This document shows, piece by piece, positions 26,821 through 42,997 of a DNA stretch of 64,000 nucleotides. Made by a program: the position numbers and the translations under genes. The DNA is from Promethearchaeia archaeon (GTDB taxonomy: Archaea; Asgardarchaeota; Lokiarchaeia; Sigyniarchaeales; SOKP01). The DNA lies in the NCBI GenBank assembly GCA_029856125.1, contig JAHQWJ010000120.1:248001-312000 (forward strand). The letters run 5' to 3'. The notes under the pieces are model-generated. The model saw only the letters and a program-made list of their open reading frames with translations, was not told where the DNA came from and ran no database searches. Positions within the stretch are counted from its first letter, which is position 1, and each line of letters starts with the position of its first letter.

Positions 26821-29787
26821 TTAAAAAGTTTGACGGAATATATCCATTACAGATTGTCTACTTAGTTTGATGAGGATTAAATACATCCCCAAAATCCCGA
26901 AGAAAATGGATAGGGAGAACACTCTAAACAAGACATCCAAAGGGATTGAGAATACAATAGGCATTTCTGTCAAAAGTCCTAAATTCGTTTCCATTAAGTA
27001 AGCACAAAAGGTACCGATTAAAGTCCCCATCGTTCCGCTACTCAACATAATAATTAAACTTTCAATCAAGAAGAGATTCCTTACGTTTCTTGTTTTCATA
27101 CCCATAGACCTTAGAATGCCAATTTCAAATTTTCTCTCCATCATTACTGCGTACATTGTGCTTACTAAACCAAAGATTGCTATAACAATTGCAAACCAAA
27201 GAACAACTTCCATTAAACTGCTTTGTCGATCAAACATAGATTGCATCATATTTACTTTTGTTATTGCGTCGTCAAGAAAATAATCTTTCCCTGTAGAAAT
27301 ATCTCGTATCTCATCTTTAGTATCTTCAATTATGGTTTCGGAATCATCTTCAAGCTTAATAAAAGCTTTATCAACAATCATTTTTGGGTCCCATTGATTT
27401 TTAACATCCATTAACCTCATGTAGTTTTCTAAAGAAACCATAATGCCTCCACCTTCAGCAGAAGCTTCTGTAGTTCTAAAGTTAAAAAATCCTGGCATTC
27501 CTCCGGAAATACCAACAACACGGAATAGAGTAATATTTCCAGGATCGTTCGGAATTTGAGGGTTGAAAAAAGTTAATCGAATGTATTCACCGACATCATC
27601 GATGCCGAAAACAGTCGCAAGAGACTTAGCAATGATGCATGTATTATTTTCGTTAAACAATTGACTAAATGAATAATTAAATCCGCTCCGTGGACTGCTC
27701 CAAATCATCAAATCATTATCCATTAATTTATAATAATTCCTCTCAATACCAATAAACCCGACCTCTAAATTGTCGAAATTTGCTATATCTCCGCCTTTTA
27801 CTTGATATTTTTCTTCCGCTTGTTCAGTGTAAAATTCAAAGATGTTTATAAAAGCATCATTAATAGAGTCCTCGTCAAAACCGCCTCCACTCTGGCTAAA
27901 GTCGAATAAAATCGATAAAACAGACGTTATATCAAACATGTTATATAATGACATAGCGATTTCATCTATTCCATCAATAGTTTTTAGGTCTTCAATCGTA
28001 TTGAGCGTAATTGCGTTAGTTTCGGGATTTACTCCTTGATTAATTAAAACTAAATCGGATCCATATTGAAATTTTAAATTAGTTGCCAAGTTCTGCGATT
28101 CCATCTCGGAAACGCTAGTGATAAAGAAAATGAAAGAAAAACTTATCGCAAACATCACAATTGTGCTTGTGTTCCTCCTCCTGTTTCTTTTTAGCGATAT
28201 TTTAATAATATGAGCATACTTCTTAATGAATGGCGTGAAAGCTCCAATTAATAGGCTTTGTATGATTGGTATAACCCCTACTGATGCGAAGACCAACCCA
28301 ATTAATATAGCCGCAATAAGTCCAATAAATAGACCGGCAATCATCATCATATCACCCGACACGAATATGCTTGGTAACAAGATAAACACTAGCATACCGA
28401 TAGTAGCAAGTGCTGAGCCCATTAGAAAATTTCTAACATTCATACTTCCCTCTTTCTTTACCTCCCACCCTTCTTCTTTCTTGTGAAACGGCGTAATTGA
28501 CTTAATAATATCAATTTTGGCAGTTTTTAAGGCAGGGATTAAAGAAATTACTAAAGAAACTATAGATCCTATGGAAAATGCTAAAATAACTGTTTGAGGT
28601 TGAATAACAAAGTCCATATTCTGTAGGGGAAAGTCTGTCAAAACGAAGAGTGCGCCCACAACTGGCGGTGTTCCGATAAGACCTACGATTATCCCTATAA
28701 TAGATCCTACCACTCCAATCATTACACCTTCAAAAACTACCATTTTTACAGGAAACATTTTCTTTCCTCCTACAACTCTTAAGATTCCATATTCTCTAAT
28801 TCTTTCTTCTGTAGATGTAGAAAGAATAGAATTTATTAAAATACCTGTAATAAGCATAGAAATAATCGTAATAAACCAAAAAATAATTGTCATACCCATT
28901 AGTAAAAACTGTTGAGCACTTATTTCCTGTAATTTCGGCATTGCTACGGTGTAAGCATTAGGATCTAGTCTTTGTTGAATTCGCGTACCTATTTCCCTAA
29001 TTTGTCGTTTAGTGAAATCAATATCGCTAACAACGTAAATTGATTGTGGATTTTTAATGGTGCCCATTATTAAGTTAATCTCTCCTTCGCGCTGCATAAA
29101 TGATTGAGCTTGTTCTAGATTTACGATAATTAATGCGTTTTCTAATTCAGTAAATTTTAAGTCTTGTTCGCAGATAGCCACAACCTCGACATCTAAAGAA
29201 TATTGCTGATAATTCATGTGGATTAAATCTCCGATACTCACATTTAGAAGCTCTGCAACTTTCCATAAAATAACACATTCTCCCATATTTGGTTCGGCAA
29301 CATAATTACTTCCCGTTTCAGTACCATTCTGATCTACCAAGTTTAAATATCCCATTTCTCCATTATTAACTTCTTTTAAGAAATCGATTCCATAAACTTG
29401 TAACGAACCATTCGAATCAGTATTATCAGAAGATACTTTCACAAGCATCATAATTCGTGGAAATAACTCATCCACACCCTCAATATCTGATAATTCATTA
29501 TCTATTAGTGATTCATCAAAAAAAGGATCAAATGTTAAATCTGTATTTACGGCTTTAGATATTAGTATATCGGAGCTTCCAGTGGTACTCGTTATAATCC
29601 CCATATAATTATAAGACATTGAATCGTTTATCATACCGATTGCGGTGAGAAGAATTATTGAAATTGTAATTCCGCTCAACCCAAACAAAACTTTTGCTCG
29701 ATCTTTTTTTATGTTTAACCAAGATTGTTGTAAAAATTGGATTCTGAGTTTTAACCTTAATTTATATAATATATTTTGTATACTCAC
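26821..29787 (-). CDS. FtsX/MacB-like ABC permease (second permease of the subtilase operon)
   Basis: 988 residues, GTG start at 29787. It has a full double FtsX architecture. An N-terminal membrane helix (about 33-53) is followed by a large MacB-type extracellular domain. Next come three helices of the first FtsX domain (about 295-425), four further helices around 450-560, a second large extracellular domain, and a terminal FtsX domain with three helices. Typical FtsX strings are present (EYGILRVVGG and the terminal FEIGILRSMGM). Such type VII ABC proteins do not form a classical channel. They use ATP hydrolysis to transmit movement across the membrane and extract or activate envelope substrates. 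It is the last gene of a 16-kb minus-strand unit whose ATPase is at 41644-42822, and a paralogue of the permease at 38602. The distance between the ATPase and this gene is unusual. Confidence 0.85.
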   Translation of the reverse strand: MSIQNILYKLRLKLRIQFLQQSWLNIKKDRAKVLFGLSGITISIILLTAIGMINDSMSYNYMGIITSTTGSSDILISKAVNTDLTFDPFFDESLIDNELSDIEGVDELFPRIMMLVKVSSDNTDSNGSLQVYGIDFLKEVNNGEMGYLNLVDQNGTETGSNYVAEPNMGECVILWKVAELLNVSIGDLIHMNYQQYSLDVEVVAICEQDLKFTELENALIIVNLEQAQSFMQREGEINLIMGTIKNPQSIYVVSDIDFTKRQIREIGTRIQQRLDPNAYTVAMPKLQEISAQQFLLMGMTIIFWFITIISMLITGILINSILSTSTEERIREYGILRVVGGKKMFPVKMVVFEGVMIGVVGSIIGIIVGLIGTPPVVGALFVLTDFPLQNMDFVIQPQTVILAFSIGSIVSLVISLIPALKTAKIDIIKSITPFHKKEEGWEVKKEGSMNVRNFLMGSALATIGMLVFILLPSIFVSGDMMMIAGLFIGLIAAILIGLVFASVGVIPIIQSLLIGAFTPFIKKYAHIIKISLKRNRRRNTSTIVMFAISFSFIFFITSVSEMESQNLATNLKFQYGSDLVLINQGVNPETNAITLNTIEDLKTIDGIDEIAMSLYNMFDITSVLSILFDFSQSGGGFDEDSINDAFINIFEFYTEQAEEKYQVKGGDIANFDNLEVGFIGIERNYYKLMDNDLMIWSSPRSGFNYSFSQLFNENNTCIIAKSLATVFGIDDVGEYIRLTFFNPQIPNDPGNITLFRVVGISGGMPGFFNFRTTEASAEGGGIMVSLENYMRLMDVKNQWDPKMIVDKAFIKLEDDSETIIEDTKDEIRDISTGKDYFLDDAITKVNMMQSMFDRQSSLMEVVLWFAIVIAIFGLVSTMYAVMMERKFEIGILRSMGMKTRNVRNLFLIESLIIMLSSGTMGTLIGTFCAYLMETNLGLLTEMPIVFSIPLDVLFRVFSLSIFFGILGMYLILIKLSRQSVMDIFRQTF

Positions 29788-29817
29788 TTTATCACGCTTT
29801 ACTTTCGATTGTGTTAA

Positions 29818-32800
29818 TTACCTATCTAAAATACTAAATTTTTTACTTTTATTTTCGAATTTTCTTAGAAAAATGCCATTTTCTTTTAATGATTCTTTTA
29901 TTTCTCCAATTTCTCGCCTAACTAATCTAACTCCTCGACATTTTTTGTTTTTACAGTAAAAATTCTCTTCTGGCTTATCTTTAAAATACCATTTACCGCA
30001 ATTTATACAGTTATAAGCAACATAAATTTGATCGTGATCGCACTTCGGGCACATATAGTTAAATTGACTTGATTCAAACCATGATTGACAATACTTGCAG
30101 TGGAGAATTAAGGGATTCTTGTATTCTTCTGAAGTTTCTATGATCTCTATTCTCTTAATGACTTGCTCTTTATCAAGTTCTTTTAACCTTAGTTTCTCCG
30201 CAAAGGTATTCCTACGGTGTCTGAAACTAAATTTACCATATTTTTCCGCTAAAACATAGGATATTATGCCAAGTATGATAACACTTACAATTATTAGCAA
30301 CCAAATTCCCCACGTTTGAAAATTCATTAACCCATTTTCTACTTCGACGTGAACTACTGATTCAGCTCTATTTCCTTCTGCATCGTAAGCAACGACCATT
30401 ACTATGTATGTCCCATCTAGAAATTGAGAAGTATCCCATTCAATACTTAAAACTCCGGTACCTTGATTGAAATTAAGCAAACTTCTATCAATCATCTCAT
30501 CGTTGATATATATATTTATACGAGTATCATCTATTTCAATATTATCGCTGATGTTTGCCTCAATTTTAGTAATTGAGTTGACAATTTCATCGTTTAGCGG
30601 TGTGCTAATTTCGATAGTAGGAGCGATGAAATCTGTGAATTTATCATAACCTAAATAGATATTTGATATTAACCATCCATAACCCAAGCCTGTTGTTATG
30701 TCATTGGAATGTAAAGTGAATTTGATTAAAACAATTTCATTGGAGTATTGCGAAATATCCAATGATTCGTTTCCTGCAAGATTTTCAGAATCAAAGTAGT
30801 ATTCTCTTAAATTATCCCAACTTTCTCCGTAATCACTTGAGATAGAAATTGTACACTTGTCAAGTTCGTCCTGTTCCAAAAAGAATTCATTCTGTAAAGA
30901 AATTTCATACGCAAAATTCAAGAAGACATCGTATTCATCTCTAAGATGTAAAGGATATGTTATTAGACTAGCTTCCCAATCGGGCTCATATCCTTGCGAG
31001 AGACTACCGTAACTTTGGCCTAATCCTCCATATATGAAGGGATTTCCAAAGCGATAATATAGATGCCAACTATTATCCCCTTTTAACCATTGCGTTAGCT
31101 CTTTTTGCATCGGATTTCCAGTGATATAATAATCCGATAAAGATGTAAGCGTATAATCGAACCCAATTAATTTGCCACTTTGATTTACATTAAATTCGTA
31201 AGCAATGGGATTTTGAAAATTAAATAAATTATTATCTTGATTAAAATAATTAGTAGAGTTGAAAAACTTACCATCGTATACATGAAACCTAAAAGTCAGA
31301 TTAGTAATATCGTTCAATACGAATGACTTTACAAATTTAATTCCACGAGAGTCAACGGAGCCTAAACTCGCGTTCCACGCGCCAAATATATTAATCATAG
31401 AATAATTCTGATTATTGATTTCAATAAATACATATTCAGGATAATTGTTATCGGAATCGAAGTAATTTAACGAAAAAGTGATTCTATCGTATTTAAATCC
31501 TTGAATATCGGATATGTTATCGTCTACATTAAAATCTATTTCAGGCGTTTGAAAGTTCGTATAGTTCTCTAGCGAGAAATAAGCCAACGCAAATCCTTTA
31601 TAGTTAATAGGATCGAAATCTTCATCTATTACAGCTACAAACCTAAATTGGACAAAATTTCCAATATATTGAGTTATATTTATTTCTTCTAAAAACCAGT
31701 CCCTTTCTTCACCTGAATAAATTCTTAACGTAATCCAGCCCGTCCAATTAGGATTTATCTGCAAAAACATGAAATCACCAGAATTTAAACTCGTTCTTAG
31801 CCCTATTTTAGCCAAAACTTGCGTATAGTTTTTATTGATGCTAGTTATATTAAACAAGGGGCTTCTTAACGATCCGTTAGGAAAGGGATTTGTTATGATA
31901 TATGGTTGGTATGTATAGTTTAATGGAAAATCATGGTCTCTACCGAAATACATTGCTGACCAGTTCTCAGAATATAAAGTGGAACGATTGTCATTCTGAT
32001 TACTTTGATTTAACATTCCCCAACCTGTTCCATTATATGACCATCCATTAAACCCATCGTTAAAATCGTGAACATATGGAAATGCCTCGCTATCATCTGG
32101 AAATTCGATATTGATACTTAATAACTCTGATAAAGGATATTTTGCATGATGAGATCCATCACTAGCGTTAAAATAGTAGTAATATTTCCCTGGTTTAGAA
32201 AATTTAACAAAATCGCTTCTAAAAACAGCTCCGTTAGTGTAATTGTCATCAAAAGCGAGAATTTGAGTCATTGCATACTTTTTTGAAGTATTTACAATAT
32301 ATAAGCATACTTCTTGAGGAGGTATATTTGAGGTATCGTTATCAAAATATTCTATGAAAAACCAATAATTATCAATAGTATAATTCTTAGCGGGTTCACT
32401 TCCATAAAATTCTTGGAGGCTAATAACTGTATCATTTTTTGCCCCCCCGAAATAATTAATCTCGGTCATTTTTAACTCGGGAGCGAAATTATTATTCACG
32501 CTAGAAACATTCAAGGTAAAGTTACTTTTTCCTGAAATAGCTTTAACAATTAATATACATTCTGTTTGGTTATGCTTTGGAGTGAAGTAGAAGAAATCTG
32601 AGTCCCCATACCACTTTTGTGCTGCTTGTAATAACAAGGGTTCTCCAAACCGATTTGATTCATTTGCATATAGAAATAAATCTAAATCTGCGTTACCATC
32701 CACATTTGATAGATTGAAACTATATTGAGTGTCTTCAAGTAAATGTATTTTTCTTGCAAACACATGATTTTCCAAGGGATTTAATTCTGAACTTGTCAAT

Positions 32801-34623
32801 TCGTAATTAATAGGTTCATTTATCTCAATTTCTTTGGTTAAGGCATCAATAGCCGCTTGAGTGTTCAATCTTCCGTACCCTTCATGTACATCTTTCAGGT
32901 TATTTAATAATCCATTAAAAAGATTTGGTGAGTAATCACTTTCATCTATTTCTGTTTTAGGATCATCCTCTCTTTCGAGATTTGTTTCTGATGCGGTCAT
33001 GAGTAATATAGCTTTTAACATTTTTACCCATTTAGTAAGATTCTGGTTATTCCATTCAGTCCAACTCCCCCATTTCGCATCTATTAATATGTTAATTACT
33101 GCAGAAACGATTGCTGTTGATATTGAAGTCCCGATTAAAGCGGTTGTATCATTAGATTTTCCATCTGCACTTACAATTGAGCGATGACTTGGTATTGTAC
33201 TACCTCCTGGCGCAACAATATCAGGTTTCAGAATGTTTTCTCCGACATTTCGTCCCATGCTGCTGTAAGAAGTTATCATGTCTTCATCGTTGATCGCACC
33301 AACAACTATTGCATTTTTATTAATACCTAAACTGTTAAATGGCTTAGCACCTTCGATTCCATTATTCCCCGCAGCAATAACTACTATAATATGATTTTTA
33401 ATGACTTGATCAATTACAGCATTAATCGCAGTTACATCTTCTCCTATTGTTCCGATGCTTAAACACACGGAAATTATTTGATATATTGTTCTGTTTTGGA
33501 TCACGCTTGCCATTGCCGATATTAAGTCTGATACATACCCTTGCCCTGAACTATTTACGACTCTATAACTCAAAATTTTGGTAGCGTTAGCGATTCCATT
33601 AAAATGATTATAGTCCTCATAATAAGATTCGGGAAAAAATGACATAGATGAGTTGAAAGAAAAGGCTGGAGTAGTATTACTTTTTTTATGATATTTAATA
33701 TAAACATCATAAATTCCTCTTTTATCAGGGGCGACATTGTGTATAATTGAATAGATTTGATTAGGATTTTGAATGGTACTAGAATTAACCAATGTAGAAT
33801 TATAAAACAATTCCAGCCAAAAAGTATCTATTTCATTTGTCTGATAATCGAAGCTGGAATTTATTCCAATTTTTGTGCTACTTTTTGACATATTTACAGT
33901 GAGAATTTTAAAAGTATAATTTTTTGAAGGTAAATAATCCTCAAATAACTCCAAATGTGTGTAATTTCCATATAAATTAATAAAAGAAGGGCTGCTAGAT
34001 TCATTGGTGAGGACGCCAGTACCTGCAATAACAGAGGATATGAAAGTTCCGTGGCCGTTTCTATCAGAGATCAAATCGTTATCGACAAAATTCTGCCAAC
34101 CTACAACTTTATTTTGTAAAAAAGCTTGATTAGGATTAATGCCACTATCTAAAACTGCGATAGAGGAATCAGTGTCACCATTATAACCATTATTATACCA
34201 AGTGGCATTAACTGATTGTGTTTGAGCGCTAGCATAATTCATCTGAACTTCAATAATTTCATCGGTATCGATATTAATATCGGGAAATTCATTCTTATAT
34301 AAAGATAAATTAACTAAAGGGATTGTTCCAGCAAATCCTGAGAAATCATTAAATAACCCATTCCAATCTTCATGCTCTTTTAAAATACCACCATAAGACA
34401 CAAATCTAATCTTTGCGCTATTATTATAATTTGTATTATTAAAAAAAACTATTACATTTTTGTTACCACTGTTTGATGTGCGTAGTGTATCTGAGAATTC
34501 TTTTTGTTTTACGAGTTTCACACCGTTTAAATCTAAAGTTTGAAATTCTAAAAGAAAACTAGTACCGATATTTAATCCGAGGATAAGAAGTAAGATAACA
34601 AGATATTTTGATACTTTTTTCAT
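29818..34623 (-). CDS. Membrane-anchored subtilisin-like serine protease with cytoplasmic zinc-ribbon tail
   Basis: About 1601 residues from the ATG at 34623. A TTG six bases upstream is possible, but a GGAGGGG Shine-Dalgarno suits the ATG. Parts: signal peptide (about 1-25); a propeptide-like region; a subtilase (S8) domain with catalytic Asp159 (AVLDSGIN), His191 (NGHGTF), oxyanion Asn in AAGNNG (about 418-423) and Ser500 (GTSIST). An insert of roughly 140 residues lies between His and the rest of the core. Beyond about 620 lie beta-rich repeats (PPC-like, Ig-like and concanavalin-like), then a transmembrane helix at about 1437-1459. The cytoplasmic tail bears paired Cys knuckles (CKYC, CPKC, CINC, CKNKKC), probably zinc ribbons. 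It should cleave proteins outside the cell. Zinc ribbons on the inner side of a protease are unusual. Its start lies 3 bases beyond the stop of the preceding surface-protein gene. Confidence 0.88.
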   Translation of the reverse strand: MKKVSKYLVILLLILGLNIGTSFLLEFQTLDLNGVKLVKQKEFSDTLRTSNSGNKNVIVFFNNTNYNNSAKIRFVSYGGILKEHEDWNGLFNDFSGFAGTIPLVNLSLYKNEFPDINIDTDEIIEVQMNYASAQTQSVNATWYNNGYNGDTDSSIAVLDSGINPNQAFLQNKVVGWQNFVDNDLISDRNGHGTFISSVIAGTGVLTNESSSPSFINLYGNYTHLELFEDYLPSKNYTFKILTVNMSKSSTKIGINSSFDYQTNEIDTFWLELFYNSTLVNSSTIQNPNQIYSIIHNVAPDKRGIYDVYIKYHKKSNTTPAFSFNSSMSFFPESYYEDYNHFNGIANATKILSYRVVNSSGQGYVSDLISAMASVIQNRTIYQIISVCLSIGTIGEDVTAINAVIDQVIKNHIIVVIAAGNNGIEGAKPFNSLGINKNAIVVGAINDEDMITSYSSMGRNVGENILKPDIVAPGGSTIPSHRSIVSADGKSNDTTALIGTSISTAIVSAVINILIDAKWGSWTEWNNQNLTKWVKMLKAILLMTASETNLEREDDPKTEIDESDYSPNLFNGLLNNLKDVHEGYGRLNTQAAIDALTKEIEINEPINYELTSSELNPLENHVFARKIHLLEDTQYSFNLSNVDGNADLDLFLYANESNRFGEPLLLQAAQKWYGDSDFFYFTPKHNQTECILIVKAISGKSNFTLNVSSVNNNFAPELKMTEINYFGGAKNDTVISLQEFYGSEPAKNYTIDNYWFFIEYFDNDTSNIPPQEVCLYIVNTSKKYAMTQILAFDDNYTNGAVFRSDFVKFSKPGKYYYYFNASDGSHHAKYPLSELLSINIEFPDDSEAFPYVHDFNDGFNGWSYNGTGWGMLNQSNQNDNRSTLYSENWSAMYFGRDHDFPLNYTYQPYIITNPFPNGSLRSPLFNITSINKNYTQVLAKIGLRTSLNSGDFMFLQINPNWTGWITLRIYSGEERDWFLEEINITQYIGNFVQFRFVAVIDEDFDPINYKGFALAYFSLENYTNFQTPEIDFNVDDNISDIQGFKYDRITFSLNYFDSDNNYPEYVFIEINNQNYSMINIFGAWNASLGSVDSRGIKFVKSFVLNDITNLTFRFHVYDGKFFNSTNYFNQDNNLFNFQNPIAYEFNVNQSGKLIGFDYTLTSLSDYYITGNPMQKELTQWLKGDNSWHLYYRFGNPFIYGGLGQSYGSLSQGYEPDWEASLITYPLHLRDEYDVFLNFAYEISLQNEFFLEQDELDKCTISISSDYGESWDNLREYYFDSENLAGNESLDISQYSNEIVLIKFTLHSNDITTGLGYGWLISNIYLGYDKFTDFIAPTIEISTPLNDEIVNSITKIEANISDNIEIDDTRINIYINDEMIDRSLLNFNQGTGVLSIEWDTSQFLDGTYIVMVVAYDAEGNRAESVVHVEVENGLMNFQTWGIWLLIIVSVIILGIISYVLAEKYGKFSFRHRRNTFAEKLRLKELDKEQVIKRIEIIETSEEYKNPLILHCKYCQSWFESSQFNYMCPKCDHDQIYVAYNCINCGKWYFKDKPEENFYCKNKKCRGVRLVRREIGEIKESLKENGIFLRKFENKSKKFSILDR

Positions 34624-34625
34624 GT

Positions 34626-37600
34626 TCAAAATTCCCCTCCATCTTCCGTACTATCCTTAATATAACTCTGTTCTTTGGAAAGTGAATTAAGGCGGTCTCT
34701 TAAGGTATTTTCAACTTTTAGAACCGAGTCATTGCGTGATACTTTAAAAAGCATTAATTCGTTCCTCTGAAGTTCATACTTACTAGCTTTATATTTCTTA
34801 GTTTTCCAAATGAAAATCGTTAAAGTAGTAAACGCCGCTAAGGCCGGACCTAGCACAAACAAAATATTAATTTCTTCTGGAATTATAACTTTAATTTCAA
34901 TAGAATTTGATGTTTCTATTACTTTTTGAAGGTAGAAATATTCAATACTCGCAGGTTTCAGCCTGATTAAAGCTTGTTTAGTCGCTTGAATTTTATAGGA
35001 AAATGTAATTTTCTCATCTGGTTGCAAACTCGTAGCAGTATAAATAAGACTTCCGCTAATTAATTCAAATTCAATATTCGTAAAGCCAATAGCGTCGCTA
35101 ATGGTAATATTTTTCGCACAAATATTCCCGGTGTTAGTAACCGTTATGTTTACCGTAATAATATCCCCAATTTCTATTTGATCTCGATTAACTGATTTTA
35201 ATATTGAAAAATTGATAAAACCAAGAATAAATGACTTTGAAGAAGCAATTTGAATCGTATTTTCCTCTAAACAACTGAAATAATTAACAGAAGGATAATA
35301 GTACCCTTTCCATCCAATTTTTATTAAGGAGATGTTAAAAATTATTAACTCATTATACATAATTTCTGGCGTAACCAGATTCTTCTTACTATTAGGTACC
35401 AAATCTCCGTATTGATCATTAAATGAAAGAGATAAATTTGGAATCACTAATCCAGCAATTCCCGTATTTTTAATATAAATTGACAAGTTAAATATTTCAT
35501 CGACACTAGGGGCTAAAGTTGTGGAATTACAATGAATCTCAATCGTTCTAACATAAGGTTTTCGGGATAAATAATCGATTGGAGCAGAAAAATACACATC
35601 ATTTGGTTGAGACTCCAGTGTTGTAGAATTTAAATTTTGAATAAAATCTAAATTATTATAACTAATTGTTGCATTGCTAATTGTAGCTGTATTTGGAACA
35701 TAAAAAGAAAATGAAATTTGCTTTTTCTCAGATGGAGCAAGATTAAGAATATTGTATTTTAAGTAGTCTTTTTCGATTGTAAAGTTGAAAGGATTATGCA
35801 TAATTCCGGGGACCATAATTGATATATTAACGTTTCTTGCGATATTTGACCCTATATTGCTAAAAACTAACGTATAGTTATTTATCTCTCTCGTACTTGA
35901 ACTATAGCTAGATAAATAAGAATATGAGGTAATAGACGCCATATTGTAAGTACTCAAAGAGATTGTATTTGATTTTTTAATATATTCAACTTTACCACTT
36001 AATGAAGTATAAGTAACTCTAGATCCTAAAACTGTATACTCGTTAACATCTCTGTAATAAAATTCTATATCCAAATCATTTATCGAAATGTTAAACTTGT
36101 CAGAATTGATCCCCTTTATTTTTAAAATAATTGAATGGTTGTTTCTATCTGCAGGATCAAAAATCCATTCAAAAATCTCTTGGTCTTTAATAAACGTATA
36201 AGTCGATGCGTTATTGATTGTGGTAATCAAATACGGTGATATATCTTGAAAAGTTTCTGAAGTATAATTAAAAACTTCAAAATTCAACACTTCATTAATG
36301 TCAGTGTAATTAACAATAATTGAAATACTATCTAAAGAATTGTTTGTTAGGTCTATCGCAGTTTCATTCTTAAAAAGAAATTGTAATTCAATCTCGTGTT
36401 GATCAATATATTTCTGTTCTGATTCGACGATCCAATCTAGGTTATCGTTGTTTAATGCCATTTGAGGAGAAGTTCCGTCAAGTGAAATCCCAGAAATTAT
36501 CGAAGGTATCTGCGGAAAATTTTCATTAACAGTAAAATTATATTTGTAAAAAGAAGAAAATGTATCAAACCCTTCTATCGAAAAATTGTCGTAGGTATAA
36601 GATAATACCTCGTTTGGCTCTAACTTCCAATTCTCACTATTCCAAATACTCCGTTCATTGGTAAAAGTATCTTTTAGCGATTCTGAAGATTGACCTATTG
36701 CATCTAATGAAGAAATTAATTGTGGGTTACCTATTGCAATTAAATCAATCACATGATCCATATTTTCATTATAAGGTAAAAAATTAGTGAGATTGTTAAG
36801 ATCTGGAAAATAAGTATCTACAGTTCCTGCTCCTGTTGTATCAAAATAAAAAATGTGTGGATTCTTATCAAAGTTAAAAAAATCCTCCAAAGAAGTGTAT
36901 TGACCAGCATACTCAATTCTGACAACTTCCCATATAGATTCTTTAAGATCCTCATCAAGACCTAAAAGAACTCCGATTGGTCCTATGATTATTGGAAAAA
37001 TATCATCGAGTTCTATAGGTATTGGAGTAGGAACCCCCCAAGCAGTTTCGTTACCTACATTTGTAGCTGTAATATTAAATGAAAAGTCTTTAAAGGCTCC
37101 ATTTGAGGCATTCCCCCCAATTAAGTCTTTTGTAATAAGTAAATTGGGTTCTGAATTTGAAATTTTATAAGTAATAACTATCTCTTCAATTGGGTTAAAA
37201 ATTCCGGTAGGTATTCCTGGTAACCCTTGAATTCCGAACTGGTGTAAAAAATTTATGATATCTGCTTGGTTGTTCAGATTTACGGGTTTAACATAACTTT
37301 GCTTAAATCCATTGTCGTTAACCCAAAACAATTCAAACGAATAATCTTTAAGCGCCTGGATATCAAATTCTATCTCAGCGTAGTATAGTAATAAGCCGAT
37401 TTGCTCTAATAGAAAGTCATAAAGCGTAAAGTAGGAGGGTGTTGCATCGCTTATATCAGTACAAAAAATATTCACATTAATTTCACTCATAAAAGCGCCT
37501 ATTAAAGAAATAAATATCTTTTCACTAGGTTTGAGTGATTCTCCTTGATAGCCTAATGCGTCCCATAAATTAAAACGATATTCATCTTCACTGACTTCGG

Positions 37601-38585
37601 TAATTCCAAGAGCTGAACCTTCATATTGTATCATTAAGCTCGTATAATGTGATTCATTAGAGAGCGTGAGCGAACTAAACGAATCACCAAAATCGCCAAA
37701 ATCGTTTTGGGTCGATGTTTGATTGAACACCTCTGAAAAATTTCCAAATAGTGAATCATAGTCAAGGATAATATCAGAGAATTGCTCAAATACATTATCT
37801 ACTTCAAGATTTTCTAAATAACCTAAATCAAGTGAATCAATATTAAAATTTACCTGATCTATGGACTTATATATATCATAGTCTAAGAAATCCAAGGAGT
37901 TCACTAATAGAAATGTGGAAGATAAATGTTGAGCATTAATATATTCTTCGGAAGTTAAACGTTCCACATCTAAGGCTTTCCAATAACCATCCATAGGAAG
38001 GTTTTGCGTAATTTCATCAAGATAAATCTCCCAATTTGGATGATCCCCTACAAATGGAAAGAAATACGCGTTTGAGGTATTTATCGTTATTAAATCTATC
38101 TCAAATTTCTTTCTTATAATATCTAGCGCTCGATTTGCTCTAAACAATACGTCTTCTTCGCTCATTTCTTCATCGTAATAAAGAAATCCCGAAAAACCGT
38201 TAAAAGTCGTTTCATATTGCTTACTATAGCGATCTTCATTAATAACGCGAGGGAATAATTCTGGCGTAATCCCGTTTGATACGCTGAGAAGCACATTACA
38301 TTTATAAAACGCGGGATCTCTCGTATCAAACTTAGGAAGAATACTTGTATCGTTAGTGAAAAGCGATTGTTTAATGACTGATTTATTCCCTGCTACTAAA
38401 GCATTAATTTGTTCTGCATACAAATCTGTTCCCGCTATATCAGACATTTCTAGAAATTTTTCTTGAAAATCGGATTGTTCCTCGTAATCAACTACAAATT
38501 CTTGACTGCCAAAATTGTCATATATTGGGAAAGAAATAAAATTAAGGAAGAATAAAACAGTCAATATTTCTTTAGAGTATTTCAT
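34626..38585 (-). CDS. Large surface protein with signal peptide and C-terminal membrane anchor
   Basis: 1319 residues. A signal sequence is visible at the N-terminus (ILTVLFFLNFISFPIY) after a good Shine-Dalgarno (GGAGGAGATG). The main body is beta-rich and Asn/Ser/Thr-rich with many potential N-glycosylation sites. It includes two or more CARDB/DUF11-like domains, recognisable by 'NTGN' and 'ITVTNTGN' phrases in the C-terminal third. A transmembrane helix (ILFVLGPALAAFTTLTIFIW) near residue 1240 is followed by a charged 60-residue cytoplasmic tail. No catalytic motif was found. Its stop codon lies only 3 bases before the ATG of the subtilase, so the two are translationally coupled. The topology matches the subtilase, so a partner, inhibitor, substrate or receptor role is plausible but unproven. 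Confidence 0.75.
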   Translation of the reverse strand: MKYSKEILTVLFFLNFISFPIYDNFGSQEFVVDYEEQSDFQEKFLEMSDIAGTDLYAEQINALVAGNKSVIKQSLFTNDTSILPKFDTRDPAFYKCNVLLSVSNGITPELFPRVINEDRYSKQYETTFNGFSGFLYYDEEMSEEDVLFRANRALDIIRKKFEIDLITINTSNAYFFPFVGDHPNWEIYLDEITQNLPMDGYWKALDVERLTSEEYINAQHLSSTFLLVNSLDFLDYDIYKSIDQVNFNIDSLDLGYLENLEVDNVFEQFSDIILDYDSLFGNFSEVFNQTSTQNDFGDFGDSFSSLTLSNESHYTSLMIQYEGSALGITEVSEDEYRFNLWDALGYQGESLKPSEKIFISLIGAFMSEINVNIFCTDISDATPSYFTLYDFLLEQIGLLLYYAEIEFDIQALKDYSFELFWVNDNGFKQSYVKPVNLNNQADIINFLHQFGIQGLPGIPTGIFNPIEEIVITYKISNSEPNLLITKDLIGGNASNGAFKDFSFNITATNVGNETAWGVPTPIPIELDDIFPIIIGPIGVLLGLDEDLKESIWEVVRIEYAGQYTSLEDFFNFDKNPHIFYFDTTGAGTVDTYFPDLNNLTNFLPYNENMDHVIDLIAIGNPQLISSLDAIGQSSESLKDTFTNERSIWNSENWKLEPNEVLSYTYDNFSIEGFDTFSSFYKYNFTVNENFPQIPSIISGISLDGTSPQMALNNDNLDWIVESEQKYIDQHEIELQFLFKNETAIDLTNNSLDSISIIVNYTDINEVLNFEVFNYTSETFQDISPYLITTINNASTYTFIKDQEIFEWIFDPADRNNHSIILKIKGINSDKFNISINDLDIEFYYRDVNEYTVLGSRVTYTSLSGKVEYIKKSNTISLSTYNMASITSYSYLSSYSSSTREINNYTLVFSNIGSNIARNVNISIMVPGIMHNPFNFTIEKDYLKYNILNLAPSEKKQISFSFYVPNTATISNATISYNNLDFIQNLNSTTLESQPNDVYFSAPIDYLSRKPYVRTIEIHCNSTTLAPSVDEIFNLSIYIKNTGIAGLVIPNLSLSFNDQYGDLVPNSKKNLVTPEIMYNELIIFNISLIKIGWKGYYYPSVNYFSCLEENTIQIASSKSFILGFINFSILKSVNRDQIEIGDIITVNITVTNTGNICAKNITISDAIGFTNIEFELISGSLIYTATSLQPDEKITFSYKIQATKQALIRLKPASIEYFYLQKVIETSNSIEIKVIIPEEINILFVLGPALAAFTTLTIFIWKTKKYKASKYELQRNELMLFKVSRNDSVLKVENTLRDRLNSLSKEQSYIKDSTEDGGEF

Positions 38586-38601
38586 AATTTTTCATCTCCT
38601 C

Positions 38602-41601
38602 CTACATTGTTTCCCTATAAATATCTACAATTTTCTTTTTTCGGGATTTATTCAATAATACTTTCATTCCAATTAGAGTAAAAATTATCGATATAGCAAA
38701 AATTACGAACATATCTGTTAATGGAAAAACAGGGATATTAGGTAAACCGCTAGTTAGATTCATAGACACACTTAGAAGTAAACTAGTAACCCACCCTACG
38801 ATGACACCTACAGTTCCACTACTTAGCATAATAATTAACGACTCTATAGTAAACATTCTCCCGATTTCTTTCCCTTTTAACCCTAAAGTTCTAACAATCC
38901 CTATTTCTTTTTTTCTTTCAATAATTGTTGAATAAGAAGATGATAGTAATCCAAATAAACAGATGATTACTGTCGCATTCAAGGTCATAGAAAAAAACAC
39001 GGCAATAATTGTGAAAAATAATTCTTGTTCCGTAATCCTTTGTTGTAAACTTATTATCTCAAAATCAAAAGAGTTCTCATTTTCCCGTTTTAGTTTATTC
39101 ATGATAAACTGTGATGAACTTTGGGCATTTAGATTGAGTTTAATAAATATCTTGTCTAAGTATGGTATTGGGGGAATATCCATAATACTCATATAGGTTT
39201 CTTGAGAAATCATAACGCCCCCCATATTAGCCGATGCAGCAGATCTCCCAAATTCACCCATAAAGCCTGGCATGGCTGCTGCGACTCCAACTATTTTAAA
39301 AGTATAGATCTCAGACTCGTCCCCCCTCTGTATTACCATCCGAATAATATCTCCGAGAAGCATATCCATACTTAAAGAAATACCTTCTGATATAATACAA
39401 GTATAGAAAGTTTGTTCAATAAATAGTTGTTCAAAAGACGATTTGGTTTCTCCCTGTGTAAATTCCATATATTCGGTTTTGATCGTAGATAGATATACTT
39501 CGTCAACGCCGATAAGACTTATTTCTTGTGTTGTCAAACCAGCGTAATCCCCAATCTCTGCTGTAAATTCTTTACCTTCTTCAGAATAAATTTGTGTTAA
39601 CTGGAAAGGGCTGGCGATTACCGAGGAAATCCTCTCGATACCATCGATTTTTAATAATTCATCCTTAAAATCGCTTGTGAGGATTCTATTCGGATTTACA
39701 GAAAAGTCGCTATCTTGACTTGTTTTAAGACCATCAACAGAAGTGCTAAGAAAATCACCACCCTCACCTCCAAATAATCCAAAACTCTCGACTTCTTCGG
39801 GTTCGAACCACCCTTCTGTTTCTATCACTAAATCTGAGCCTAAATTCAAGTTAGCACTCACTACACTCTCGTTCGCTAAAAAGCTAAATACGCTCGAAGT
39901 AAATATTACAAACGAAAAAGTAAATGCAAAAGTTATTATCGTGCTAGAGTTCCTTCTAACATATCTAAATATAAAGATTCTATAGACTGGGGCTAATTTT
40001 TTGGTAAATACTGAAAAAAATCTAATAAACATTCTTAAAATTAAAGGCATTAAGGCCAATCCTGCCAATGTCATTCCAATCAAAAATATTAATAACAAAG
40101 CGATTAAAGTTCCTGACATTAACGCCGCATCTCCAGTAGTTAATATCCTTGGGATAACAAACAATACAAACGCTCCATTCGCGGCCAGAATAACACCCAC
40201 GATTAGAAGCTTATAGTTCACCGAAGCTTTTTTTTTAAGTTTATATAACACATCCTCCTTACGATAAGGATGGATAGATTCTATTAATTGGAGCTTCATA
40301 ACTTTAATAGCAGGTGAGATACTAACAATAAGCCCTACACTTAATCCAATGATATAAGCAATTAAAAACGACCAAATAGTAGACGAGAACGTTATATTTC
40401 CCGCTAGACCCGGTATCGATTCCGCTACAACAGCACCTGCTATCGGAAGTACGAGATATTGTGTTAGAAGTTGGGCTAGTATCATGCCTAATATCGTTCC
40501 AAAATTACATAACAACAATCCTTGTACTAAAACGATTATTAAACTGTAACGCTTGGTTGCTCCCAGCGTTCTAAAGATCCCAAACTCTCTTATACGTTCC
40601 TCAACAGATGTTTTTAGAATCCCATTAATTAAAACACCAGAAATTAGCATAGAGATCATAGTTACGAATACAAAAATTATCGTCAACCCGACGCTAAACA
40701 TTTCAGAATAACCTAGAATGTCTAACTTTGGTAAACCTATATTATATTCGTTTAATCCGATTAAAATCTGAACTTTTCCCGCTAATTTTTTGACTCGATC
40801 TTCTGTACCGTCGATATCCCTTGCATCATATAAAAGTTCATCCCCTTTTAATGTTAAAATTAATTCGTTACATTTTCCATTGAATGTCGTGTTACCAAAG
40901 GTATCGTAAATGGTATTAATATCAACGACAATCAAGGGTCGGTTTGTATATGTTATAGGCCATTTCAATTGAAAATCAAAAATGCGATTTATGGTAAAAT
41001 TTTTTACTCTATAATAGTAAGTATCTCCGTGCCATAATCCCATTCTAATTTCAATTGTGTCGTTCTCAGCATATTTAATTTCCTCGTTTAACCCGTAATA
41101 TATAGCACATTGATTCAAAGCTAAATTAGAAATCTCTAACAATTCGTTAGTATCTGGCTTTAAAAAACTCCCAAATTGAAGTTGGTTTTCTAATTCAAAA
41201 TCTATCCCCGAGATAATAACGCTACTCCTACTGTTTGCTAATTCTTGGGTTTCATAACCCTTAGAATCGTTAACATTTCCCCATAAACTCATTCTAGGAA
41301 TAAAGGATTCAACTTCGTCGATATCACTATGGATCGTTTCTATTATGGGCTGATAACTGAAATAATTCGACCGATTATCGGGCTCGCCATTATAATGTCT
41401 TACGGAAACATTAAAATCTTGTTGGCCTGCATCGATACTAAGATAATCAATGAAAGTAACTGCTATAGAATCTGATAAAAATAGAATTAGCGCTAGAAGT
41501 CCAATAGAAATTGTAATTCCTAATACCCCAATAAAGGTCCTGGTCTTGTGACGGACGAAATCTTTTAAGGCGTATTTAAATACTATTTTTATGTTAGTCA
41601 T
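38602..41601 (-). CDS. FtsX/MacB-like ABC permease (first permease of the subtilase operon)
   Basis: 999 residues, ATG at 41601. It has the same plan as the permease at 26821: an N-terminal helix (about 23-44), extracellular domain, FtsX helices (about 300-430), a second helical group (about 465-580), a second extracellular domain and a terminal FtsX domain. Conserved FtsX strings occur in both (EFGIFRTLGATKR and KEIGIVRTLGLKG). Sequence drift between the two copies is large outside the membrane parts, so they are old paralogues, probably forming a heterodimer. It begins 42 bases after the ATPase gene ends and is followed 16 bases later by the surface protein. It should couple cytoplasmic ATP hydrolysis to movement of extracellular domains. 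Confidence 0.87.
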   Translation of the reverse strand: MTNIKIVFKYALKDFVRHKTRTFIGVLGITISIGLLALILFLSDSIAVTFIDYLSIDAGQQDFNVSVRHYNGEPDNRSNYFSYQPIIETIHSDIDEVESFIPRMSLWGNVNDSKGYETQELANSRSSVIISGIDFELENQLQFGSFLKPDTNELLEISNLALNQCAIYYGLNEEIKYAENDTIEIRMGLWHGDTYYYRVKNFTINRIFDFQLKWPITYTNRPLIVVDINTIYDTFGNTTFNGKCNELILTLKGDELLYDARDIDGTEDRVKKLAGKVQILIGLNEYNIGLPKLDILGYSEMFSVGLTIIFVFVTMISMLISGVLINGILKTSVEERIREFGIFRTLGATKRYSLIIVLVQGLLLCNFGTILGMILAQLLTQYLVLPIAGAVVAESIPGLAGNITFSSTIWSFLIAYIIGLSVGLIVSISPAIKVMKLQLIESIHPYRKEDVLYKLKKKASVNYKLLIVGVILAANGAFVLFVIPRILTTGDAALMSGTLIALLLIFLIGMTLAGLALMPLILRMFIRFFSVFTKKLAPVYRIFIFRYVRRNSSTIITFAFTFSFVIFTSSVFSFLANESVVSANLNLGSDLVIETEGWFEPEEVESFGLFGGEGGDFLSTSVDGLKTSQDSDFSVNPNRILTSDFKDELLKIDGIERISSVIASPFQLTQIYSEEGKEFTAEIGDYAGLTTQEISLIGVDEVYLSTIKTEYMEFTQGETKSSFEQLFIEQTFYTCIISEGISLSMDMLLGDIIRMVIQRGDESEIYTFKIVGVAAAMPGFMGEFGRSAASANMGGVMISQETYMSIMDIPPIPYLDKIFIKLNLNAQSSSQFIMNKLKRENENSFDFEIISLQQRITEQELFFTIIAVFFSMTLNATVIICLFGLLSSSYSTIIERKKEIGIVRTLGLKGKEIGRMFTIESLIIMLSSGTVGVIVGWVTSLLLSVSMNLTSGLPNIPVFPLTDMFVIFAISIIFTLIGMKVLLNKSRKKKIVDIYRETM

Positions 41602-41643
41602 TCTAATTAAAACGTACTTTTATAATAAAATAGATGAATTATT

Positions 41644-42822
41644 TCAATCTAAAATCAATTCTTCTCCCGAAATTTGCCCCTTAATATTATTTTCTTCTAT
41701 AAGTTCATCCAAAATATCGTTAAAATGTTCTGGGAGGTTTGAAACGATCGGAATTGGGACACTATTTTTAATATCACTAACTTTGATATTGGTTTTACCT
41801 TGATTCGTATATAAAAATTTAAATATTAAACTCTTACATTTTTCCTTATTAATTTCAGCGTCCTGTTTCCTTCGTAACTGCATAATATCTGTTTCTTTTA
41901 GACCTCCAATTTTCCCCTCGTGAGTTAATTTTCCATCTCTCATGTGATACACTTTCGTAGCGAATTCTGATACCGCAGCATCGTGAGATACAGATATAAA
42001 TGTTGCTCCTTTTTTGTTTAAATCTCTAATAAGGTTCAAAATCATAATTCCGGTCTTGGAGTCTAAGTCACCAGTTGGTTCGTCGAGAATTACTATGGCT
42101 GGATCGTTAGCAAATGCTCTTGCAATTGCAACTCTTTGTTGTTCCCCACCGCTTAATTCTGATGGTGTATGGTGAGAACGCTCATCCAACCCTACCAGAC
42201 TCAGTAAATCCATTGCTTTTTTTCTCTTACCTCTTTTACTTAACTTTCCAGAAAAATGTAAAGGGACCATTACATTTTCTAAAGCTGTCATTTGCGGTAG
42301 TAAGTTATAAAATTGAAATACAAAGCCAATTCTTTCTCTTCTTATTTCTGCTAAGTTGTTGTCATTAAGCATGGAAATATTACGCCCTTCTAAGAAAATT
42401 TTTCCTCTCGTAGGAGTATCCAATCCACCTACTAGGTTTAAAAGTGTTGTTTTGCCACTTCCTGAAGGACCCATTATATCTATAAAATTACCTTTATCAA
42501 TCGCTAAATCAACGCCGCGCAGAGCCGCTACCGCCGTGGTTCCAAGTAAATATGTTTTGTGTAGGTTCTCAACAACAATTAAATGCTCATAATCTTTTCC
42601 AACTTCTTTTTCTTGTTTTATTTCGAATTTGATTTTCTTTCTTTCTTCACGAGAGAGGGTAAGTGATTCCAATTTCTGCTGTTTTAATGTATTTTTTTGT
42701 TTTTTAATTTGCCATTTTCGAAATTCTTTGCTTTCTTTTCCCTTCCATATCGCAAGTTTTCCAGTTTCGTTTTCGTATTCATCCATTTCCTCAGTTTTTT
42801 TAATAATTCTTCTTTCAGACAT
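41644..42822 (-). CDS. LolD/MacB-type ABC ATPase with N-terminal charged extension and C-terminal winged-helix-like domain
   Basis: 392 residues against roughly 230 for a LolD/FtsE-type ATPase. Residues 1 to about 78 are highly charged, Lys/Glu-rich and probably helical. The ATPase core carries Walker A (GPSGSGKT, 118-125), Q-loop Gln170, the signature LSGGEQQR (223-230), Walker B (VILDEPT, 244-250) and the switch His280. Residues of about 328-392 look like a winged-helix domain (SLIFKFLYTNQGKTNIKVSDI, then a two-stranded wing ending GEELILD). It powers the two FtsX permeases downstream. The extra domains may recruit a regulator. A TATA-like box (42850-42859) lies about 25-28 bases upstream, so it is the first gene of the unit. 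Confidence 0.9.
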   Translation of the reverse strand: MSERRIIKKTEEMDEYENETGKLAIWKGKESKEFRKWQIKKQKNTLKQQKLESLTLSREERKKIKFEIKQEKEVGKDYEHLIVVENLHKTYLLGTTAVAALRGVDLAIDKGNFIDIMGPSGSGKTTLLNLVGGLDTPTRGKIFLEGRNISMLNDNNLAEIRRERIGFVFQFYNLLPQMTALENVMVPLHFSGKLSKRGKRKKAMDLLSLVGLDERSHHTPSELSGGEQQRVAIARAFANDPAIVILDEPTGDLDSKTGIMILNLIRDLNKKGATFISVSHDAAVSEFATKVYHMRDGKLTHEGKIGGLKETDIMQLRRKQDAEINKEKCKSLIFKFLYTNQGKTNIKVSDIKNSVPIPIVSNLPEHFNDILDELIEENNIKGQISGEELILD

Positions 42823-42859: not shown

Positions 42860-42997
42860 GTAGAACAAATACTAAGATAATCATTACTGCAATAGGTTTA
42901 GAAGTATTAGGAATGTTTTAAACATTAAGATTCTAATATATTCGAACATCCAATAAAAATTTTTTTAGATATAAAACGATTGAAATAGGAGTGAAAT

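Follow-up and report, generated by a model that had tools for sequence, protein, structure and literature searches.

One ATPase, two duplicated YbbP-type permeases and a giant surface protein form the core of a conserved Lokiarchaeial cassette in which a subtilase is accessory

What is the task of a locus that encodes, in a row, one ATP-binding cassette (ABC) ATPase, two FtsX-like permeases, a giant surface protein and a subtilase, and which of these parts make up its core? The question is raised by a stretch of 64,000 nucleotides (the window; positions 248,001 to 312,000 of contig JAHQWJ010000120.1) from a 3.69-Mb lokiarchaeal draft genome of 153 contigs (G000; assembly GCA_029856125.1). A preliminary description of this DNA had proposed five minus-strand genes with short or overlapping junctions, and the list of open reading frames (ORFs) of the window confirmed them at the same positions and all on that strand; we refer to them, in transcription order, as ATPase, FtsX1, Surf, S8 and FtsX2 (Table 1), with gaps of 42, 16, -4 and 30 bases according to the ORF coordinates. 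Above the Pfam cut-offs, the ATPase has ABC_tran, each permease has FtsX twice, S8 has Peptidase_S8 and Surf has TRAP_beta/DUF11. FtsX-like permease domains together with an ATPase of the LolD/FtsE type identify the system as a Type VII ABC system (MacB/FtsX superfamily), and these domains and the recurrent gene order described below sustain the proposal of a MacB/FtsX-superfamily machine encoded by one conserved operon-like unit. We conclude that the system is real and unusual, and that its core consists of the ATPase, the two permeases and Surf, while S8 is accessory. With a probability of roughly 0.45, we suggest that the operon encodes a Type VII (mechanotransmission) ABC machine that acts on membrane-bound surface proteins, with Surf as a scaffold and S8 as an accessory.

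Conserved synteny across relatives had been set beforehand as a check, and we mapped 38 fetched loci in two sets (20 + 18). The full order ATPase-FtsX1-Surf-S8-FtsX2 was found on one strand in 25 of these and in the window, that is in 26 loci, with divergence reaching down to ~26% identity and gaps mostly below 120 bases; none of the 38 loci has a cassette of mixed strands. The check is thus passed, and the gene row is more than a chance arrangement. Contig ends interrupt the cassette in three loci in which the remainder agrees with the order (L051, L052, L078), FtsX2 directly follows Surf without S8 between them in five (L053, L082, L083, L084, L086), and another five are short fragments. Some genes are split into two frames (FtsX1 in L079, Surf in L081) or cut by contig ends (FtsX2 in L034, ATPase in L081). 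On the single contig C1 of genome G166, Surf ends around residue 942 and S8 begins around residue 930 at a distance of ~1.5 Mb, which suggests that the scaffold was misjoined or a segment inverted.

Within Lokiarchaeia, the cassette was found in a single order in this analysis, and all 13 named contigs on which close relatives occur (loci L021-L033, used solely for organism names) come from Lokiarchaeota or Lokiarchaeia metagenome-assembled genomes (MAGs). Surf is present in 57 of 79 genomes of the order (E up to 1e-20) and an FtsX of the cassette family in 64 (E up to 1e-30); all 57 Surf genomes also have the FtsX match, and the 15 genomes without FtsX are also without Surf. Because the genomes are draft MAGs, single absences may be assembly gaps; the 15 include G001, G011, G064, G071 and G080, which are 98-99% complete. 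In the position that the cassette has elsewhere, between a Ham1-like and an RNase III gene, G080 has an empty site with only 107 bases (L092); these two genes lie ~0.4 kb apart without a cassette in G011 and G071, and two other ORFs lie between them in G064 (L093). Because one or both neighbours of the cassette differ in g4, f2 and f27 while its internal order stays, the unit is conserved and not the neighbourhood.

Both permeases are internally duplicated. Their N- and C-terminal halves are 25.2% and 26.5% identical, each half carries one coupling motif, giving two per permease, and a crude hydropathy scan found 11 and 10 hydrophobic stretches; FtsX1 and FtsX2 are 31.6% identical to each other. 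An AlphaFold2 (AF2) model of FtsX1 (pLDDT 71.9, pTM 0.55) has Escherichia coli YbbP as its top match in Foldseek (9ge6, E 1.5e-18) as well as in VIA (9ge7, Z 22.3 over 748/804 residues), and the next matches in VIA are YbbP 9ge6 (Z 19.7) and BceABS (Z 19.6). A passage of PMC12646458 gives the layout of YbbP as transmembrane segment (TM) 1, ectodomain, TM2-4, linker TM5-6, TM7, ectodomain and TM8-10, and its stoichiometry as each permease combining with two ATPases and one hydrolase. Ten TMs, two ectodomains and the internal duplication were recognized in FtsX1 from the model and in FtsX2 from the sequence. Because of this duplication and the YbbP-like fold of FtsX1, each permease is probably a complete pseudodimer that would form a full transmembrane unit alone, served by one ATPase. 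Two proposals of the preliminary description are not supported: that the ATPase and first permease are a normal pair, both permeases being duplicated and FtsX1 folding like YbbP, and that the permeases form a heterodimer, which is rejected on account of the internal duplication of both, with two coupling motifs apiece.

Compared with E. coli YbbAP-TesA (9ge6/9ge7/9ge8), the cassette has in common a permease that is internally duplicated and has two coupling elements as well as two ectodomains, a separate LolD-type ATPase and an extracytoplasmic hydrolase partner; it differs in having two permease genes and a giant surface protein, in a partner enzyme that is a membrane-anchored and dispensable Peptidase_S8 instead of a TesA-type enzyme, and in the extra N- and C-terminal parts of its ATPase. 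MacB, LolCDE and FtsEX likewise consist of an ATPase and an FtsX-like permease of this superfamily, but their permeases, which typically have four TMs according to a passage of PMC12646458, work as dimers, whereas those of the cassette would be fused pseudodimers. Assignment to FtsEX, with its dimer of 4-TM FtsX, was rejected, the cassette permeases being ~1000 amino acids (aa) long and duplicated.

In a quick tree of 83 permeases, which has SH-aLRT support only and flagged long branches and leaves out five permeases below 700 aa, FtsX1 and FtsX2 each form one clade (98, 99) parallel to the other and separate from an outgroup of 17 permeases that belong to other Asgard archaea; in both clades the first split sets f27 apart from the rest of the cassette rows (support 99-100). 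Each outgroup locus is represented by a single permease (one of two was omitted at L054 and L056, and a split one at L055). A related ATPase adjoins 16 of the 17 outgroup permeases, the contig of L071 being too short to tell, and no Surf or S8 match (E 1e-5) was found among the ORFs listed around the 17. The split permease at L055 (7723-11038, genome G024) is YbbP-like and encoded by two genes of 476 and 623 aa.

The accessory status of S8 follows from its distribution. Of the 33 fetched loci in which the junction of Surf and FtsX2 is readable, 28 have S8 there, as does the window, while five genomes have the cassette without it, namely four f27 genomes (G186, G187, G189, G190) and G077 from the window's own family. 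In G077, 3 bases separate Surf from FtsX2 and no S8 match was found genome-wide at E 1e-10; in the fifth f27 genome, G188, FtsX had no match. Most simply, an older module acquired S8 in the f1/f2/f26 line, and G077 lost it afterwards; the alternative for f27 is that S8 was lost there instead of never gained. For the S8 tree, the L072 fragment and six cassette rows that were near-duplicates were removed; the 23 cassette S8 in it group as a single clade versus 20 non-cassette Asgard subtilases (99/100), which are homologous over ~600-780 residues including the catalytic domain (400 in L113) and of which 16 are from this order. A subtilase of 4589 aa in the f27 genome G187 (L111:429-14198) falls outside the cassette clade.

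The active site is complete in the window (D161, H193, N422, S502) and intact in 26 of the 29 cassette S8 that have the catalytic domain, as it is in all 20 non-cassette subtilases used as a control. In L048 and L049 (g9) and L081 (g54), G stands for D, L or Q for H and D for N, and S is kept; because these three copies cluster together in the S8 tree (100/100), one inactivation is enough to explain them. The degenerate copies are open over ~1470-1500 codons, and the pair L048/L049 has a pN of 0.21 versus a pS of 0.76, the same in the catalytic part, with dS values that are saturated; degenerate S8 is thus still under purifying selection. The nucleophile motif is GTSM in 17 and GTSF in 3 of the 20 non-cassette proteins and GTSI/V, or relics thereof, in cassette S8. 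Hydropathy gives an N-terminal stretch (residue 9), a stretch within the catalytic domain (498) and a C-terminal TM (1442), and Big_7 is the sole Pfam domain above the cut-off in the ectodomain. Probably, the protease was added later to the machine and was then inactivated or lost in some lineages. This weakens the idea, put forward in the preliminary description, that regulation or presentation of a protease is the point of the system. In its explicit form, this idea holds that the permease complex mechanically activates S8, as FtsEX does with cell-wall hydrolases, and that regulated proteolysis is the purpose; it draws on the regular position of S8, on its mostly intact active site and on the existence of enzyme-activating Type VII machines (a passage of PMC12646458), but we regard it as unlikely because the module lacks S8 in five genomes, three copies have D, H and N replaced, and the permeases are duplicated and YbbP-like instead of 4-TM FtsX.

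The proposal that the partner proteins are membrane-anchored is supported, with a topology that is less certain for Surf because in the hydropathy scan its C-terminal stretch near residue 1233 is weak and its N-terminal signal stays under the threshold. An AF2 model of Surf residues 30-1225 (pLDDT 81.3, pTM 0.74) has in VIA-align chain T of human glycosylphosphatidylinositol (GPI) transamidase as first match, in three entries (Z 18.0/17.8/17.2; 362-369 of ~530 residues aligned, root-mean-square deviation (rmsd) 5.3-5.8, 10-12% identity), the best having an rmsd of 5.7 over 368/530 residues; another GPI transamidase entry, 9ub7, follows with its chain E at Z 13.2, and unrelated structures match from Z 11.1 down. 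Chain T is PIG-T by the letter code in a passage of PMC9098846, which portrays the protein as a scaffold of the complex with two luminal lobes, one a 'half-rib' cage of ten strands and one a sandwich of nine strands. Surf and PIG-T/Gpi16 have in common that they are beta-rich, membrane-anchored extracytoplasmic proteins, PIG-T being a scaffold (same passage of PMC9098846); Surf differs in being more than twice as long, in carrying a TRAP-beta-like domain, in its 10% identity and in not being matched by Pfam Gpi16, and the cassette and, judged by PF01650, the window's genome are without a relative of PIG-K.

Sequence searches for PIG-T were negative: Gpi16 (PF04113) had no match above the cut-off in 148 genomes (with controls that lack a eukaryote), gave at E up to 1 short matches in 4 of the 148 and in no Surf frame, and did not appear among the Pfam matches of 21 Surf members even at E values up to 10, while the Surf profile against PDB sequences at E up to 10 returned three TRAP-beta and two irrelevant rows and no PIG-T. 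The likeness is therefore structural only, and we consider it a strong structural lead and not a result. A GPI-transamidase-like system with a C13 protease was rejected as a candidate, because PF01650 (C13, PIG-K) does not track the cassette (24/57 Surf genomes versus 15/22 without Surf); no PF01650 match was found in the window's genome or in the cassette. In G150 a C13 (legumain-like) protease match lies ~2 kb downstream of the cassette (C293:2293-2532), and most other listed C13 matches are on contigs other than that of the cassette. A reading built on the resemblance is that Surf is a prokaryotic homologue of PIG-T and the operon an ATP-driven complex that processes or re-anchors lokiarchaeal surface proteins, in which the permeases extract the cargo and a protease shares one platform with a PIG-T-like scaffold. 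We hold this to be doubtful, homology being countered by the absence of GPI transamidase entries from the 50 best Foldseek matches by E-value, the negative Gpi16 searches and the untracked C13 protease.

The last domain of Surf matches TRAP-beta with Z 14.7 and an rmsd of 1.6 over 104 residues (VIA), and Pfam TRAP_beta is present in 21/21 Surf members (in the window at 46 bits versus a cut-off of 22.4). In TRAP-beta, this domain is the entire ectodomain of a small protein, the PDB chains of which have 183-186 aa; because it is only a small part of the 1319 aa of Surf, the possibility that Surf is an ordinary TRAP-beta was ruled out. No Pfam match above the cut-off was found in the middle of Surf. 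Among the matches listed for 227 genomes, with two candidates scored per genome, full-length Surf occurs in this order only, elsewhere just the TRAP-beta-like part is matched, and six lokiarchaeal genomes have a separate match to profile positions ~650-850 in another protein. In G184 (C6:16472-16978), a domain like profile positions 674-846 is part of an open frame that spans 11,504 aa.

The closest PDB sequence to the ATPase is MJ0796 (1f3o, E 4.2e-86), and its best NCBIfam model is LolD (240 bits, under the equivalog cut-off of 307.75). In an alignment of 19 cassette ATPases, extensions of ~80 aa at the N-terminus, short in g4 and f2, and ~85 aa at the C-terminus were evident. The C-terminal extension (window 41644-41916) is conserved in the cassette and had no Pfam match above the cut-off; ATPases beside other Asgard permeases have only 230-285 aa. 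The LolD/MacB type of the ATPase and MacB_PCD in FtsX1 would agree with a MacB-like system that exports a surface polymer or a secreted peptide, with the subtilase as leader peptidase; we find this quite improbable, because the gaps of at most 42 bases in the window cassette leave no space for a precursor gene and the leader peptidase would be dispensable in members without S8.

Past its TM, S8 has a tail of ~140 residues that is predicted to be cytoplasmic and contains eight cysteines (C1511, 1514, 1527, 1530, 1541, 1544, 1559, 1564), which are kept in all 30 cassette S8 examined, inactive copies included. The tail, which had zinc-ribbon matches in Pfam below threshold only, is a predicted double zinc ribbon that would bind zinc. 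Non-cassette Asgard subtilases differ in this respect, in that the 17 with complete C-termini (three of the 20 are cut there) all lack a CxxC within their final 140 residues. Because the tail outlasts the active site, we argue that what stays constant in the job of S8 is its contact with the cytoplasmic side. Retention of the cysteines where the active site is not retained could also fit a BceAB-like module for envelope-stress sensing or resistance, in which the tail would relay a signal inward, as could the patchy presence of the cassette with its empty sites, and the rank of BceABS among the FtsX1 fold matches, next after YbbP and tied with one of its two entries. BceAB(S) indeed has a 10-TM permease of the same layout; yet BceB is without the first ectodomain (a passage of PMC12646458), which FtsX1 has, and the membrane kinase partner, like any other kinase or regulator, is absent from the five genes, making this explanation still less probable than an exporter.

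For the machine acting on membrane-bound surface proteins, our working model is as follows. A single ATPase homodimer would drive FtsX1 and FtsX2 in turn, and the ATP-driven motion of the permease ectodomains would pull membrane-anchored surface proteins or lipids out of the membrane and pass this cargo to Surf as the scaffold. S8 would be docked on the same assembly, in line with YbbAP working with a partner hydrolase (a passage of PMC12646458), and would trim or release cargo; through its zinc-ribbon tail, its position or activity could be linked to the cytoplasmic side, and in the lineage with a dead active site S8 may be a scaffold or signal part only. The physical coupling of the five proteins, the substrate and the activity are what we infer in this model. 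Three points weigh against it: the confidence of the FtsX1 model is only middling (pTM 0.55); a single ATPase serving two permeases could also reflect two machines that do different work; and because G077 and the four f27 genomes manage without S8, the protease step is not general. That the parts are co-expressed but physically separate, two transporters sharing an ATPase next to surface proteins of unrelated task, agrees with the independent gain and loss of S8, but is the least probable explanation given an order held down to 26% identity and across different neighbourhoods.

The single clear promoter of the preliminary description stands in part. The TATA-like sequence TTTATATC is present in the window and in L034 and was not found in the remaining four of the six upstream regions aligned (from 6 of 10 loci of genus g1), whereas a different element is retained, with substitutions, in all six and is a candidate for the operon promoter (Table 1).

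Table 1 Features of the cassette and its upstream region in the window
Feature	Position	Strand	Details
ATPase, LolD/MJ0796-type ABC	41644-42822	-	392 aa; ABC_tran 123 bits
FtsX1, duplicated 10-TM YbbP-type permease	38602-41601	-	999 aa; FtsX x2 + MacB_PCD
Surf, giant surface protein with putative C-terminal anchor	34626-38585	-	1319 aa; TRAP_beta 46 bits
TRAP-beta/DUF11-like domain of Surf, residues ~1122-1226	34908-35222	-	Pfam TRAP_beta and structure match
S8, transmembrane subtilase (accessory)	29818-34629	-	1603 aa, TTG start; Peptidase_S8 118 bits
Cytoplasmic double zinc ribbon of S8 (putative zinc binding)	29938-30099	-	Eight conserved Cys
FtsX2, second duplicated permease, paralogue of FtsX1	26821-29787	-	988 aa, GTG start; FtsX x2
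Conserved upstream element, candidate operon promoter	42916-42947	-	Alignment of upstream regions; putative function

A search of the open-licence PMC literature by titles and abstract starts found no paper describing this locus or layout, and 'Asgard' together with 'GPI transamidase' was not found in any paper there, although one of them deals with GPI anchors in Asgard archaea under other terms. The Type VII ABC principle of a machine plus partner, which was established in bacteria, is extended by the cassette to Asgard archaea, in a layout that this search did not reveal: one ATPase, two probable pseudodimeric permeases and a giant surface protein as the suggested scaffold. The protease, being present, dead or absent, provides a natural experiment that separates core from accessory, and S8 is a protein whose predicted cytoplasmic zinc-ribbon cysteines outlast its active site. 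Lokiarchaea are relatives of the ancestors of eukaryotes. In a passage of a 2026 paper that leaves the subunits unnamed, GPI-anchor synthesis and the transamidase are described as Asgard-derived (PMC12872458). If the resemblance of Surf to PIG-T is homology, the cassette would, in agreement with that passage, indicate where one subunit of the enzyme that anchors proteins in eukaryotes came from.

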